A stretch of DNA of 22,312 nt from a virus, in IMG/VR virus record IMGVR_UViG_3300024335_000052, positions 1 to 22,312 of that record, one strand, 5' to 3'. Shown one piece after another: positions 4,025 through 21,934 of this stretch. Below the pieces are notes generated by a model. It did not search any database. It was not told the origin of the DNA and saw nothing but the letters and a program-made list of their open reading frames with translations. Positions within the stretch are counted from its first letter, which is position 1; each line of letters begins with the position of its first letter. The position numbers and the translations under genes are program-made.

Positions 4025-7000
4025 TTACTGTGCCCAAGCTCTAGTAATCTGATTAATGTCATCCTTTAAGAACCACATTCTAGCAAATGGCAAGTTTCTA
4101 ACTACTTGCTTACCGCCTTCTCCATACTCACCATTAGCAAACTGATACATTCCTGAAATAGTATCAGCAGCCCAAGATGGCCCAGCACCAGCAACACCAG
4201 TTAGCGCATCAATGGCATTTGGTTCCTGTGGAAACTTAGGAGAAATAAGACCGTTAGTAATGTTAGGCCCACCAAGAGCTAAGGAGGTATGCAAAGAAGT
4301 GTAAAGAATATCTGAGTAGAGTGCCATTACACCACTCATATCAAAGCTTCTTACAAATCTATCTCGCCAACCCATTTCTTCCCAAGCAAAGCTAGGAGTG
4401 CGAATAGCCAGTGACATATAAGCCAACCCCATAGACGCTGTAATACCTAGCATTCTATTTTTAATCTGCCCTTGTGCTAATGCACCTATAGTTTTATTTA
4501 CGTTAGCTAGCATGTAGCTATAAAACTGAAACGGCAAACCAACAAAACCGTTTTCAATTCTAGTGTATCCTTTAAATTTTGCGTCTTCTTTAAATCCAAA
4601 TGATCTACCTATGTGCGCTGGAATATAAACTACACCATCAGTAATAATTGGTTTATCAGCAGGAGTAGCAGACATAATTGTATTCAACACACCGCTATTA
4701 AGTGCAGTGCGAAACTTTAATACAGTCTCTTCATTAATAGATGACTGGGCTTTGTGTTGCTCCATAGCTATTTTGTTAATTCTATTTTCATACTGAGCTT
4801 TGCTTTCACCAGCTTTTTGCAAAAAGTTTGTATGAGCAATTTCGTGAAACATAATAAAATTAGAAAATGCTTTAGGTGTTGGAAAAGCATCTTCTGGAAG
4901 CGGGTTTACACCCTTAACTCTTGGTTTAGTCCAAGCTTTATCTTGATACATTGGGCCTTCAATGTAATCTATATCTGCAAAAATAGTTTTCTTTTTCTTA
5001 TCGTAGTAAGCCGGTATGTATCTGTCGCCTCTTGTTTTACCAACAGGAGAGCCATCTTCATTTATAGTTACAATGCGAGCATCAGTTTGTGGAAAGCTAA
5101 GATTATCAACCCACTCATCTGTATTAGCCATATACAAACCATTGTCTGTTTTGCGCCAAGGAGCATTAGCAATTTGCTTAGCATCCTCTGCGCTAATCCC
5201 GTAGCGAGACAGCCATGTTAGCTCTTGTGGTGTAAGCTCGGTGTACCGAATCGAGTAATCAATAATAGTATGTGCATCAACAATACCAGCTAGTTGTTTA
5301 GCTATACCAGTCATCGGAGCAAGCCCGTTCATAATATAGAAAGCATTTCGGGCATTACTAAGAAGGTCACTAGCATCTACGTTATTAGAAAGATCCTCCA
5401 TAAGCCGCATATGTGCAGAGCCACGAAGAATATCTATAGCCTCACCAGCATATCTAATTTCATTAGCTGTTAGATTAACTGTGTTTTTATCCATAATTGC
5501 TTGAATGCCTTTCATAACATTCTCAGCATCATGCTCCATAACAATGCGCCCAAAGTCAGGGAGCGCAGCTAAACCAGCAGAACCCATATAACTAAATGAA
5601 GCGGCCTCTCTAAGAATAAACGCAGCCTTCTGGCTCAAGCTATCTGGATTCCTAATAACTGCACCAGCAGTACGCTCATACATATGTAGATAATCCCTAC
5701 GCATTTTGTTTATGTCTTTTTCAGAAAAACCTTTAGCAATCATTTCTGATTCTAAATCAAACAAAACGCCATCAACGTCCTGACCAAATGCTTTTGCATA
5801 CTCATAACGCGGCTCAATACGAGTAGCATATGTTTTCATTACAGCAAGCGGATCAGTAACCATAAAGTCAGTTACAAGTTTATTAGGTATATCTAATTCT
5901 CTATGACGAAAGTGCTTAGAGCGACCGACACCAAAGCCAATATTATCTACATTAGTAGGGTCTTGCTCGCCTAGTATGCGATCTATTGTTAAGTCAACGC
6001 GCTCTTGAATTTTAGAAGGCTCAGAAGATAGTTCGGTCTTAACGTATGTAGATGTCTTAGAGTCAAACTCATAAATAAATGGGTTTTGCTTATACCAGCC
6101 ATAAAGAATTTCAGAAAACTCTTTACGATTCTTTTTAACCGCAGATTGGCTCCAAAACCTTGGAAAAAATACATCCTCATTGGCGGGATTAATCTTAACT
6201 TCCTCTAAGCCTTGTAATGTTTGACGCTCTCCTGCAAGCTTGCCGCCTAAGCGATCTAGTTCACCTTTAATTCTATTAGCCTCAAACTGACCGCGAGTAG
6301 TTTTTTTTCTTTCCGCTCTAGTTAATCGTGAGTTTAAGTCTTCAATCTTTGCCTCAAGATTATCTATACGACGAGACACACCTTTAGCTGTACCTATAAG
6401 CCCTACGTCTTCTAATCGCTCACCAGCATCCTTAAAGTATTTGTTTATAACTCCAATAGCCTTGCGCTCATTGTCAGTAAGATCTTCTATATTCTTAATT
6501 CTTTTTTCACTAACTGTAGTAAGCCACTTTCTGTAAGTGTTTTCGGAGCGAGAGGCACGACGAACAATATCAGTAACATTAATATCAAGCCTACTAATAT
6601 TGGCTGCACCAGTTTCCGCTGTCCAAAGCTTTATCATTTCGTCATGTGCTCTTACCCACTTGCCATTAGATACCGCTGCCCTTTGGGCAACTGACTGCGG
6701 AGAAGCCAAGCCAACAGAGTTTAAAGCTAGAGTAATGCCGCTGTCTCCAAAACTACGCACAGTCGCTTCTTTAATTGCTGACGGATATTTTGATTGTAGC
6801 AAACGTTTGACTGGTGTGGTGACTGCTTTGTAAAGAAAGCTATCAGTATAGAGTGTATTCATAATTCTATACGGATCTGTAAGATCTATATTCTTAGATT
6901 CTAGCTCACGAATACCTTGCTCATTTTTAAACTGTTGTGCGTAAGCTCTTTGCTCTTGTGCTCTCGCCTCAAACTGAGAAGCTTCTGGTCTACCTTCATA

Positions 7001-7759
7001 AGCAATAGCATCTGCCTCTGAGCGAGCCGCAGAAGACTCAAACATATCTAGTTGTGCTTGTAGATATTCATCGCTGTCATTGCCAAATCTGCGCTCTGCT
7101 CTTGGCACACTAATTTGTTCTGTTGTAACGCCCTCTAGTCTATCTAGGCGCTTAATCATATCAAATTCTTCTTGAATGCCCTGCTTTGTTTTTGCATAAG
7201 CCCTAGCGTTTACACCACCAAAGGCAGCACCAAAGCCAGCACCAAATGCGCCAGCAGAAAGAACATTTATTGCGCCCTCTTGTGCTGTCTGCAGGGGATC
7301 AGACTGCCTAGTTAGCTCTAAGCCTAGCTCTAATGCAGCCGTACCAGCGCCAACGCGCAATGCAGAACGGCCTACTCCAAGAGCAGGGCCGCCAAAAGGA
7401 AGGGCAACAAGGTTAATTGGATCAAATAAACCAGCACCAAGTTGAGAAAGGACAGATGAGTTCTGAAGAACCTGTCGCCTAGATATTGAGTCTTCTATAT
7501 CTTGTTTTAACTTTGCCATGTGCTGTGGGCTAACAGCATGATTAAGATCAGTCGCAAATAATTCATAGCCTTCTAGGTCTTGTCGCCAGTCATATCCTTT
7601 TTGAGGATTGTAACGAAAAGAATTAGTAAGAGTGTTGTATGCAGGGGCATAGCTATAACCAAGAGAAGCACCAAGTGTATCAAAAAATGATGGATCTGGT
7701 TGTTCAACTACGCCCTCAGCAAAGTACCCCGCACGAAAGCTATTAGGATTTACAGGCAT
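4025..7759 (-). CDS. Internal virion / DNA-ejection protein, T7 gp16-like, with embedded HEIAH zincin motif
   Basis: At 1244 residues this is the largest protein here (T7 gp16 has 1318), in the matching place after gp14- and gp15-like genes. Residues 102-182 are Gly/Ala-rich and hydrophobic (FDPINLVALPFGGP, then AGAFGAGFGAAFGG), as in gp16 homologues, and probably contact the membrane. Residues about 460-515 form a charged coiled coil. Residues 972-976 read HEIAH, the HExxH zinc-protease signature, preceded by PLPEDAFPTPKAFSNFIMF and followed by QYENRINKIA, where Glu991 could be the third ligand. I do not see the N-terminal lytic transglycosylase domain of T7 gp16, so the peptidase-like domain may replace it as the envelope-active part. 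The gene begins directly after the previous stop (TAA then ATG, no gap). The ejection role follows from synteny; protease activity is unproven. Confidence 0.8.
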   Translation of the reverse strand: MPVNPNSFRAGYFAEGVVEQPDPSFFDTLGASLGYSYAPAYNTLTNSFRYNPQKGYDWRQDLEGYELFATDLNHAVSPQHMAKLKQDIEDSISRRQVLQNSSVLSQLGAGLFDPINLVALPFGGPALGVGRSALRVGAGTAALELGLELTRQSDPLQTAQEGAINVLSAGAFGAGFGAAFGGVNARAYAKTKQGIQEEFDMIKRLDRLEGVTTEQISVPRAERRFGNDSDEYLQAQLDMFESSAARSEADAIAYEGRPEASQFEARAQEQRAYAQQFKNEQGIRELESKNIDLTDPYRIMNTLYTDSFLYKAVTTPVKRLLQSKYPSAIKEATVRSFGDSGITLALNSVGLASPQSVAQRAAVSNGKWVRAHDEMIKLWTAETGAANISRLDINVTDIVRRASRSENTYRKWLTTVSEKRIKNIEDLTDNERKAIGVINKYFKDAGERLEDVGLIGTAKGVSRRIDNLEAKIEDLNSRLTRAERKKTTRGQFEANRIKGELDRLGGKLAGERQTLQGLEEVKINPANEDVFFPRFWSQSAVKKNRKEFSEILYGWYKQNPFIYEFDSKTSTYVKTELSSEPSKIQERVDLTIDRILGEQDPTNVDNIGFGVGRSKHFRHRELDIPNKLVTDFMVTDPLAVMKTYATRIEPRYEYAKAFGQDVDGVLFDLESEMIAKGFSEKDINKMRRDYLHMYERTAGAVIRNPDSLSQKAAFILREAASFSYMGSAGLAALPDFGRIVMEHDAENVMKGIQAIMDKNTVNLTANEIRYAGEAIDILRGSAHMRLMEDLSNNVDASDLLSNARNAFYIMNGLAPMTGIAKQLAGIVDAHTIIDYSIRYTELTPQELTWLSRYGISAEDAKQIANAPWRKTDNGLYMANTDEWVDNLSFPQTDARIVTINEDGSPVGKTRGDRYIPAYYDKKKKTIFADIDYIEGPMYQDKAWTKPRVKGVNPLPEDAFPTPKAFSNFIMFHEIAHTNFLQKAGESKAQYENRINKIAMEQHKAQSSINEETVLKFRTALNSGVLNTIMSATPADKPIITDGVVYIPAHIGRSFGFKEDAKFKGYTRIENGFVGLPFQFYSYMLANVNKTIGALAQGQIKNRMLGITASMGLAYMSLAIRTPSFAWEEMGWRDRFVRSFDMSGVMALYSDILYTSLHTSLALGGPNITNGLISPKFPQEPNAIDALTGVAGAGPSWAADTISGMYQFANGEYGEGGKQVVRNLPFARMWFLKDDINQITRAWAQ

Positions 7760-10700: not shown

Positions 10701-11047
10701 AACTCTTTTGATTTGCTTTCAATTTCTGAGGCTATTTCTTGCTCAAAACGAGATAGCAAAACTTTTTGATAAGCCTTTAATGCATAACGCCCCATTCCTT
10801 TTGGGCCATCATAACTCTTTGGCCTACCTGTATCTGGATCAAGTGCAGTTATTTCAGAAGCCTCTAAAGCTTGAGCGCTTTCAATCCCTGCTTGCTGCGC
10901 GTCTTCAACAGCGCGTCTAAAAAAATATTGTTGGGCTTGATTTGCAGATCTAGCAACTTGTTCTCCAATAATCTGACCAGCAGAAGAGGATCTAGCTATA
11001 CCAATGGGGCCAATAGCAAATTGTTTTTTTTCTCTTATAACAGCCAT
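7760..11047 (-). CDS. Internal virion protein, T7 gp15-like
   Basis: This 1095-residue protein lies between the gp14-like and gp16-like genes, the place of T7 gene 15 (747 residues). The first 35 residues (AVIREKKQFAIGPIGIARSS, then GEQVARSANQ) match the usual opening of gp15-type ejection proteins in marine podoviruses as I remember them. The rest is mostly predicted helix, rich in Ser, Asp, Gln and Glu, without signal peptide, membrane segment or catalytic motif that I can see. Its size exceeds the T7 protein by almost half. In T7 the gp15 and gp16 proteins leave the capsid and build the periplasmic part of the DNA channel; the same is inferred here. Its ATG shares one base with the stop of the gp14-like gene (TAATG), and the gp16-like gene follows with no gap. 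Confidence 0.78.
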   Translation of the reverse strand: MAVIREKKQFAIGPIGIARSSSAGQIIGEQVARSANQAQQYFFRRAVEDAQQAGIESAQALEASEITALDPDTGRPKSYDGPKGMGRYALKAYQKVLLSRFEQEIASEIESKSKELALKHRRSPEAFKSSMSEYIAGMSNVEESTVFKNEIVRIGNAVQNQKYIALQSQAIARQERNDAILYKFNNSEASLNIEDSFAAGNDELGNSLILSAEKLDADNIAAGTILSSETIGNAKNRKLAKVQGQFRYELNQAIKTNASRFDLESALNAIDSGDLSGLSDKGFNNTYNTLVSEGATFTESFAAFATELLQDGLNQTRLTAEMETRKRIADDLDTKSKDNSEYFDLISGANSDVAGTASDAVSSYMTDLQTQLNLIESGATQAEIESITSGSFRRLNNVKSGVINNLFAEATSVEDVVNIQKYLANPTSDNLNRVNEASQSLAITLTDMARSSQNPQFLTEAISYAEGVSDEVRFSEFQTKTDNALDYNDYLKGRTFPNLFSAESVEQIELIRENSLDELNKTELQAGDREKFESALKNKTSESFIRFAFSGMTNPKAIEAAALYARDGVDPNNLVSSQRKAVIDKAREAFDDSSAYGASVERYSDGAKRRYNLNVRIASDDKLIRDAFDGTLGEATKDDRVKFGRLLSVPDDFYTNSKYDEPEYAQLTEILSQTSSSIWPQAQVDTINSFLNGNITDPDQIKRVLVTYAKASEFVTDQGLEVESRGSSSLTSSQKVLMDEAVSFSQINTDPTALAVHMQKIKTTMGNPALKAQMNDYFKGEGVKDAREFVANNFPEARMNANLFDRLLTKTRMHYFKNAGEIKPESIDDLISNLQSDIDKNFVEDNRIITLSGSSQTLYPLSVTAKGNEQAFMDYIRSSLAQNSPNKDIDWNSVEFKLTPVGYNDEDGGMTYGVVIENETGGRDLQEVSMQLEPDTEEPVIIPAFFSTNEPFFAAAKQKRMKAAEQEQVDIATEEAAQPSKASVIAERTQLGRAVQERLGFGVEYKAQVAQKKFTQQEAMDELRTIVDVDKYESLSSVKPAMLRSYGRVGEVPFNQSLIALSSILSIVKRDKNPLARQLEVDLKSMISIINGVED

Positions 11048-11508
11048 TATATGCCTCCGCTAGAGCCTTTACCTGTACTACTATAGTCGGCAATGCCTTG
11101 AGCCATTGTGGTAAATGCACCAATAGTTGCTGCTTGCTTTCTTGCTCTGCCTTCTACTCTCATTGTAGTTGCCTGTTGTTGAAGTTTCATTTGCTCAAAG
11201 AAACCCATAAGATCAGATCTTCCTGTGTCTTCTGCAACAACTTCTTTTTGCCTTTGAAGAAAGGCAGATACAGATTTATCAGAACCAACATCTCTGCCAG
11301 CCGCATAAAATGCAGAAATATTAGCCTTTACATTGTATCTATACTGCTCAAGCCTGTCATTATGACGTTGAAGTGTTTCAACTTTACTAAGCTCTCTTTG
11401 TGTTTCAGTATTAAATGCATCAAGTTCAGCAGACTCTTGAGCAGCTTGCCCAGCAGCCATTTGTCCAAATGCACTAATTCCAGCAGCAATTAATTGAAAG
11501 GCAGACAT
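11047..11508 (-). CDS. Internal virion protein, T7 gp14-like
   Basis: This 153-residue protein (T7 gp14 has 196) begins with an Ala/Gly-rich hydrophobic helix (LIAAGISAFGQMAAGQAA, residues 6-23). A long charged helical region follows, containing YNVKANISAFYAAGRDVGSD and, further on, GFFEQMKLQQQATTMRVEGRA. This pattern is typical of the small ejection protein that T7-like phages insert in the outer membrane. Position supports it: it follows the tail nozzle gene and precedes the two giant internal proteins. Both ends overlap neighbours by one base in TAATG, so expression is probably coupled. The family call rests on order and pattern more than on a diagnostic residue. Confidence 0.75.
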   Translation of the reverse strand: MSAFQLIAAGISAFGQMAAGQAAQESAELDAFNTETQRELSKVETLQRHNDRLEQYRYNVKANISAFYAAGRDVGSDKSVSAFLQRQKEVVAEDTGRSDLMGFFEQMKLQQQATTMRVEGRARKQAATIGAFTTMAQGIADYSSTGKGSSGGI

Positions 11509-21395: not shown

Positions 21396-21580
21396 CAGTA
21401 TCTCCCCATTCCTAATAAACTCCTACGCTGCATTCCCTTCCGCATCTGAGGTACATCCCCCAACTCCTGCTCAGGGCGATCAACAGGCTTCATACTCAAA
21501 GAAGGCAACGGCTCTTCTTCCGGCTTCTTCTCCTCGTAAATACTTTGAGCGCTTCTACTACTTCTTCTTCCAAAACACAT
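21395..21580 (-). CDS. Second MCFG...RRSLL small protein
   Basis: The 61-residue product begins MCFGRRSSRSAQSIYEEKK, has an acidic proline-rich middle (EEKKPEEEPLPSL) and ends RKGMQRRSLLGMGRY. The MCFG start and RRSL plus Gly-rich end match the gene just before the portal (18266-18505), although the middles differ. No function is known to me. It overlaps both neighbours by one base (TGATG). Confidence 0.7.
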   Translation of the reverse strand: MCFGRRSSRSAQSIYEEKKPEEEPLPSLSMKPVDRPEQELGDVPQMRKGMQRRSLLGMGRY

Positions 21581-21849
21581 CAGCTTTTCTTATGCCTCCT
21601 TGCAAAATTCCTAGCAGCCTCAACACTGCCAAAACCCCACTTCTTCAAAGCTAAAGCCTTCCGAGTAGGGCGACCCTTCTCATCCTTCATCGGGCCCTTC
21701 ATACCAGCAAACCGAGCAGCAAAAGAAACACGCCTTGGATTCGTACCACTCTTTAATTGACGCTTTAAATTAGCGCCTTCAGTCCGCTTGAAATAAGCAC
21801 GACCCGCAGCAGTCAATCCACCAGTCTTACTCTTGTGCTCTTTTCGCAT
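21580..21849 (-). CDS. 89-residue basic protein with GGLTAAGRAYFKRTEGANL motif
   Basis: The segment KTGGLTAAGRAYFKRTEGANL, followed by RRVSFAARFAGMKGP and KDEKGRPTRKALALKKWGFGS, matches a small basic family of aquatic phages and viruses that I believe is DUF6321. Function unknown. I chose ATG 21849, which has AAGAG 8 bases upstream; a GTG at 21858 would add three residues. The 5' end overlaps the 35-residue gene in another frame. It ends by sharing a base with the MCFG gene. Confidence 0.75.
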   Translation of the reverse strand: MRKEHKSKTGGLTAAGRAYFKRTEGANLKRQLKSGTNPRRVSFAARFAGMKGPMKDEKGRPTRKALALKKWGFGSVEAARNFARRHKKS

Positions 21850-21934
21850 ATCCAACACTCTTCAATGCAGCCTTAGCAACACTCGTATCCGCTCTAGGCG
21901 GCTGCGCCTCAGGCTCTTTCCCATACCTACTCAT
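21827..21934 (-). CDS. 35-residue small protein, first gene after motif copy C
   Basis: Reads MSRYGKEPEAQPPRADTSVA, then KAALKSVGYAKRAQE and stop. It has a good ribosome site (TAGGGG, 6 bases before the ATG) and is the first frame after motif copy C. It overlaps the next gene by 20-30 bases, more than other junctions here. It may be a real small protein or a leader that couples translation into the next gene. Confidence 0.5.
   Translation of the reverse strand: MSRYGKEPEAQPPRADTSVAKAALKSVGYAKRAQE

Follow-up and report, generated by a model that had tools for sequence, protein, structure and literature searches.

Genomic context of the ejection protein

The window (the whole stretch of DNA that was analysed, a virus fragment of 22.3 kb) carries a T7-type morphogenesis block comprising genes for terminase, portal, scaffold, capsid, tubes A and B, and gp14-like, gp15-position and gp16-like proteins (coordinates of the features discussed here are collected in Table 1). 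The scaffold gene matches the T7 scaffold family in Pfam (PF05396, 1.3e-11), while the 1095-aa protein in the gp15 position matched neither a PHROG nor a Pfam family. By its terminase the nearest isolate is the SAR11 phage Hodr (65% identity), which makes a Pelagibacterales host plausible for the window phage. Two further ORFs lie on the minus strand: an open-ended, tail-fibre-like ORF with many YNTAVGYQAGYSNTTG-type repeats (2–2446) and a small one that matches DUF6321 strongly (21580–21858; 4.6e-22).

Table 1. Positions of the ejection-protein genes and of the parts of P0001 in the window
Feature	Position	Strand	Evidence
gp16-like ejection (internal virion) protein P0001, 1244 aa, carrying the cassette	4025..7759	-	PHROG_342 match, gene order
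N-terminal core of P0001, residues 1–885	5105..7759	-	cassette sites of relatives (~196–339, ~484–495, ~564–572) fall inside
Type I zincin cassette (predicted), residues 886–1011, core site 4	4727..5104	-	core alignment of relatives resumes at 885/1012; AF2 model
C-terminal core of P0001, residues 1012–1244 including stop	4025..4726	-	kept in relatives whether or not they have the cassette
HEIAH, residues 972–976: predicted zinc ligands His972 and His976, predicted general base Glu973	4832..4846	-	translation, conservation in homologues
Glu991 in YENRINKIA, predicted third zinc ligand	4787..4789	-	aligned Glu invariant in types I and II
gp14-like internal virion protein	11047..11508	-	PHROG_418, E 4e-4
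Ejection protein in gp15 position, 1095 aa	7760..11047	-	lies between the gp14-like and gp16-like genes

Residues 20–866 of the gp16-like protein, P0001, match positions 220–998 of PHROG_342 (‘internal virion protein with endolysin domain’, E 6e-36), in agreement with its preliminary description as gp16-like. The first ∼220 positions of the PHROG_342 profile, which P0001 lacks, are the endolysin part, and Pfam yielded no SLT or lysozyme match in P0001; the absence of an N-terminal transglycosylase, remarked on in the same description, is thus upheld. On these sequence comparisons we class P0001 as a gp16-like core and not as a transglycosylase-bearing gp16. The ejection-protein core, the gene order and the T7-type scaffold, portal and tube genes are common to P0001 and to T7 gp16 and the PHROG_342 proteins, whereas P0001 has no N-terminal endolysin region and does have a zincin insert.

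A conserved HExxH+E motif with a predicted zincin-like fold

A HEIAH motif had been pointed out between positions 4801 and 4860, with Glu991 proposed as a third zinc ligand. The HEIAH codons lie inside that interval and the Glu991 codon just outside it. Glu991 is 15 residues past His976, which is the commonest spacing in the family according to our spacing count. In a protein of the size of P0001 the number of HExxH motifs expected by chance is ∼0.007 (a rough estimate from composition).

A scan with patterns made from the whole ejection protein gathered 80 relatives. The domain falls into two types: P0001 carries type I, and type II sits in relatives at the same point of the core or elsewhere in it. 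In the type I alignment His89, Glu90, His93 and Glu108, the four predicted catalytic positions, are invariant; in the type II alignment (170 positions) the only invariant positions are G45, D113, H121, E122, H125, E140 and A147, four of the seven being the predicted active site. The two histidines, the glutamate between them and the downstream glutamate are all kept in 118 of 136 type I and 122 of 123 type II profile matches in the fetched loci (the two sets overlap, as the profiles cross-match, and near-copies are included). Over the segment from HExxH to the downstream Glu the two types align in hhalign with probability 99 and E-value 7e-18, and we take them, on this profile comparison, to be homologous.

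The zincin domain is under purifying selection. Pairwise dN/dS values of the domain are mostly 0.04–0.18 and usually slightly higher than those of the flanks; in one distant pair the domain has 0.32 and the flanks 0.37. Between the window and L013 the domain has dN of 0.020 and dS of 0.41.

In six loci (L019, L163, L169, L176, L181 and L182) a long additional insert separates HExxH from the YEN.IN Glu helix of the type I domain. In two of them, L163 and L169, the first residues of the insert (MSDDDLGSLFD) resemble the start of a type II domain, which points to nested insertion.

The type I domain was modelled by AlphaFold2 from 13 sequences (P0001 numbering is local numbering + 795), with pLDDT of 83–94 over residues 895–1000. 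The model has strands followed by a helix bearing HEIAH (local 167–183) and a next helix bearing Glu991 (local 192–209). The type II model has pLDDT of 87 and pTM of 0.84. In a second-look structural alignment of model residues 91–211, the top rows for type I are almost all zincins, with modest Z scores (best 5.0): the minigluzincins selecase (4qhf, Z 5.0) and jannalysin (4jix, 4.7), Wss1 and PprI/IrrE (8sln, 4.6); 8s5f (alphaKG-HExxH) is also among the rows. For type II the structural matches, at Z 5–6.6 and so modest as well, are YbeY (a nuclease, first at 6.6), DPP III and SPRTN. Zincins came only from this second-look aligner, Foldseek against PDB giving nothing significant for the type I or the type II model; against predicted viral proteins, Foldseek matched large uncharacterised phage proteins with E-values down to 1e-7.

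For both types of the domain the models predict a zincin-like fold. The predicted third-ligand Glu is invariant in both types, and the type I model places it on the helix that follows HExxH, as expected for the gluzincin type. The two ligand-bearing segments are predicted to lie on adjacent helices and the four residues are kept in relatives; conservation and predicted fold alike agree with the earlier proposal of a zincin-like domain with H972, E973, H976 and E991 as its predicted ligands.

Relation to known zincin families

Sequence comparison with Pfam, PHROG and PDB assigned the domain to no family; in PDB neither P0001 nor either profile gave anything credible. The preliminary description had likened its layout to ImmA-type zincins. 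A likeness to ImmA, IrrE and PprI does exist: HExxH is followed by an E..AN.FA-like segment (E..IN.IA in the window), and PprI (8sln) aligns to the domain at Z 4.6 with 21% identity over 80 residues. As a family assignment, however, ImmA (M78) did not hold up, since PF06114 matched neither the domain (at E 10) nor the window, the same model matching 7 of 14 control genomes, and PprI/IrrE is one of several zincins at about that Z score. PF18818 (MPTase-PolyVal) likewise did not match the domain; its model was also silent in all the control genomes.

Zincins in large phage proteins predicted to be injected have been described by Iyer et al. 2017 (PMC5512222). The domain resembles the MPTases of these polyvalent proteins in having HExxH with a Glu on the next helix and the logic of a three-stranded sheet. 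Like them it takes varying positions within large phage proteins for which delivery with the DNA is predicted, and the stretch that joins the two helices can hold inserts that vary (L019 and L181 in this set). It differs from them in being found mainly in one family of T7-gp16-type ejection proteins, within which the cassette relocates. The main text of PMC5512222 contains no mention of gp16, ejection, internal virion or T7-like.

The C1 part of N4 gp50 (virion RNA polymerase) is another HExxH zincin-like domain in an ejected virion protein with the role of gp16 (PMC12633501), but its third-ligand context is ALNEFMAW and it has a fixed place in an RNA polymerase. As a candidate relative it was rejected, the hhalign probability being 6.3% for type I and 2.8% for type II over 11–23 aligned columns. 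In these comparisons a relationship of the domain to either ImmA (M78) or the N4 vRNAP zincin is not demonstrable. Apart from the N4 preprint, a literature search, thin on subscription journals, gave no paper on zincins in proteins of the gp16-like kind. Set beside these known systems, the domain is a zincin family without a curated model that swaps and relocates within T7-gp16-type ejection proteins.

Occurrence of the domain

In the loci scanned first, every profile match fell within a gp16-like protein, and a wider scan added large proteins. Type II was found in gp16-like proteins only. Type I is present also in more distant PHROG_342 proteins (L185, L205, L213 and L222) and in proteins of 1250–2600 aa without BLAST similarity to P0001. 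Among giant phage ORFs, five (L193, L195, L197, L201 and L203; 2294–2616 aa) have an intact type I zincin (HE..H ... YENRIN). In its C-terminal part L195 has matches to two virion structural families, PHROGs 30152 and 684; neither L195 nor L197 has a credible Pfam match. The domain was not confirmed in any bacterial genome contig at the search sensitivity used.

When isolated phages were searched with five versions of the domain, the sole phage found was Pelagibacter phage EXVC031P Hodr (OQ414635), the closest isolate. Its gp16-like protein is 27% identical to that of the window and carries a homologous type I domain (E 5e-6), which differs from ours in occupying another site (∼263–368 of the ORF) and in being inactivated, with HEIAH replaced by KEVYR.

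Exchange, relocation and decay of the cassette

The window and L004 (the same contig as L017) are sister rows with support of 100. As far as residue 885 their proteins share 96% identity, and at the DNA level the gene is ∼91% identical on one side of the cassette and ∼90% on the other. Between residues 885 and 1012 the window has a type I domain and L004 a divergent type II domain, and five relatives (L035, L038, L042, L044 and L047) have nothing. Including this one, the core has four cassette sites, the other three (in P0001 numbering) being ∼196–339 (used in L103 and L111–L117), ∼484–495 (L074, L075, L079 and L140) and ∼564–572 (L083, L089 and others).

Loss and decay are seen as well. L053, without the domain, is the sister of L026/27/33, which have type I (support 100). 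A degenerate type I copy, with HExxH changed to KExxR, adjoins an intact type II in L037, L040 and L126, and type II lies next to type I remnants in L118 and L142. Two intact copies were never found in one ORF (124 ORFs have one and 8 have none). Activity of the domain is not essential, because some degenerate copies (in L028, L030, L031, L172 and Hodr) have no intact replacement. Among 53 non-redundant gp16-like proteins obtained with the core patterns, the domain is intact in 28, degenerate in three and absent from 22.

On a tree of the core, the seven states of the cassette require at least 20 changes (mean of 45 when shuffled). Site 1 corresponds to one clade, and sites 2 and 3 require one to two changes each. 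This is a quick ML tree made with the domain regions cut out, the sites were hand-labelled from alignments, and the placement of the long rows (Hodr, L144/L145 and L078) is unsure. Related phages have moved, swapped, inactivated or lost this exchangeable cassette.

Inserts of other kinds were also noticed. At site 1, L067 (∼218–340 aa) and L082 (∼215–330 aa) have an insert without HExxH that reads by eye as ADP-ribosyltransferase-like (EFVYHGT...VSLGEDL...YTAYKDG); Pfam gave this reading no support. If real, it would add another class of enzyme to the cassettes of this protein. At site 4, L058–L062 (∼887–1050 aa) have an insert of ∼160 aa, again without HExxH and with no Pfam match, which is possibly another cassette.

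Proposed function and alternative explanations

We propose that HEIAH forms the catalytic centre of a zincin-type metallopeptidase (gluzincin-like, HExxH+E), inserted into the gp16-like protein as an accessory cassette. In T7, gp16 is a capsid-packaged protein that is ejected and forms the inner-membrane part of the channel (PMC12633501). By analogy with this known behaviour, the cassette would be stored in the capsid and would enter the envelope or cytoplasm inside the ejected protein, either ahead of the DNA or together with it; the T7 analogy favours the earlier suggestion of a peptidase carried in a protein delivered with the DNA. The delivered peptidase would then cleave a host protein (of defence, envelope or regulatory function) in trans, and phages would exchange the cassette under host pressure.

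The cassette looks like a payload and not a structural part because it is dispensable, is swapped in a near-same background, tolerates different sites and never has more than one intact copy per protein. Of the functions suggested in the preliminary description, swapping, loss and relocation of the domain favour attack on a host protein over channel maturation. We infer catalysis and action in trans, and would give an about even chance to a delivered effector peptidase that targets host or envelope proteins in trans.

The main rival explanation, which we hold to be rather unlikely, is self-processing or maturation of the ejectosome. Here the zincin would cut the gp16-like protein itself, or its gp14 and gp15-position partners, during assembly or ejection or after delivery, thereby freeing parts or dismantling the channel. 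The domain is always in cis with an ejection protein, an arrangement to be expected of a self-processing protease, and the limit of one intact copy per protein also fits such a role; both facts count against action in trans. Iyer et al. (PMC5512222), citing P1 DdrB, propose that the MPTases of polyvalent proteins process their own polypeptide. However, the 22 of 53 same-core relatives that have no cassette, with the three that have a degenerate one only, indicate that a cut is not required by the core, and site, type and linker all vary with no evident compensating change in the core.

The metal site could also serve something other than proteolysis, as structural zinc or in other HExxH chemistry such as that of an alpha-ketoglutarate HExxH oxygenase or a YbeY-like nuclease, which seems to us improbable. 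The same ambiguity is mentioned in the paper on the N4 vRNAP (PMC12633501). The occurrence of 8s5f among the type I structural rows and of YbeY at the head of the type II list speaks for this explanation, but the putative general base Glu973 is strictly conserved along with three gluzincin-type ligands, and peptidases (selecase, jannalysin, Wss1, SPRTN, DPP III and PprI) make up most of the remaining top structural rows. The third ligand of YbeY is a His and not a Glu.

It is improbable, in our judgement, that the domain cuts peptidoglycan peptides as a substitute for the endolysin domain missing from P0001. Ejection does need an opening of the wall, and Pfam matched no SLT or lysozyme in P0001 or in the other ejection proteins. 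Yet the zincin of L050 shares its protein with a Pesticin-type lysozyme at the N-terminus (E 2e-36), and that of L205 with sequence weakly matching Phage_lysozyme (E 0.003), a co-occurrence that weakens the cell-wall opening put forward in the preliminary description; L066 has a lysozyme (Phage_lysozyme, 7e-6) and no zincin. Four zincin-less proteins of ∼1100–1170 aa (L035, L038, L044 and L047) align to P0001 from the N-terminus and have no extension. Phage wall peptidases, besides, are usually of the M15, M23 or NlpC/P60 families and not HExxH+E gluzincins.

The N-termini of L134 and L138 carry an extension of the GNIRAGQGYAG type without a Pfam match; it is wall-hydrolase-like and unlike those of L050 (∼1–150 aa), L066 and L205.

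Finally, HExxH by itself is short, but a chance motif within a helical structural protein has next to no likelihood and was rejected, given ligands kept across divergent domains and four insertion sites (a conservation that already refutes it), purifying selection and a zincin-like predicted fold.

Significance for marine T7-like phages

Zincins in phage-injected proteins are a known theme of unproved function. In the phages described here the same ejection protein occurs with a type I domain, a type II domain, a dead copy or nothing, that is, in natural near-isogenic pairs; these allow a direct test that separates the structural, self-processing and effector explanations.

Somewhat short of an even chance, and so tentatively, we suggest that in marine T7-like phages the gp16-like proteins serve as a delivery platform: several of their sites tolerate insertion, and enzyme cassettes (zincins of types I and II and perhaps the ADP-ribosyltransferase-like insert of L067 and L082) are plugged into these, exchanged and retired. 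The peptidase would be an injected effector, the ejectosome an evolvable injection system and the swapping of cassettes the trace of an arms race.

Internal virion proteins are among the under-recruiting metaviromic islands of marine phages, the cause of which has been called obscure (PMC3909814). Exchange of cassettes is a possible explanation for the presence of internal virion proteins in these islands, a link that we infer. If the effector explanation is true, T7-type ejectosomes would bring exchangeable enzymes into very abundant bacteria of the ocean.
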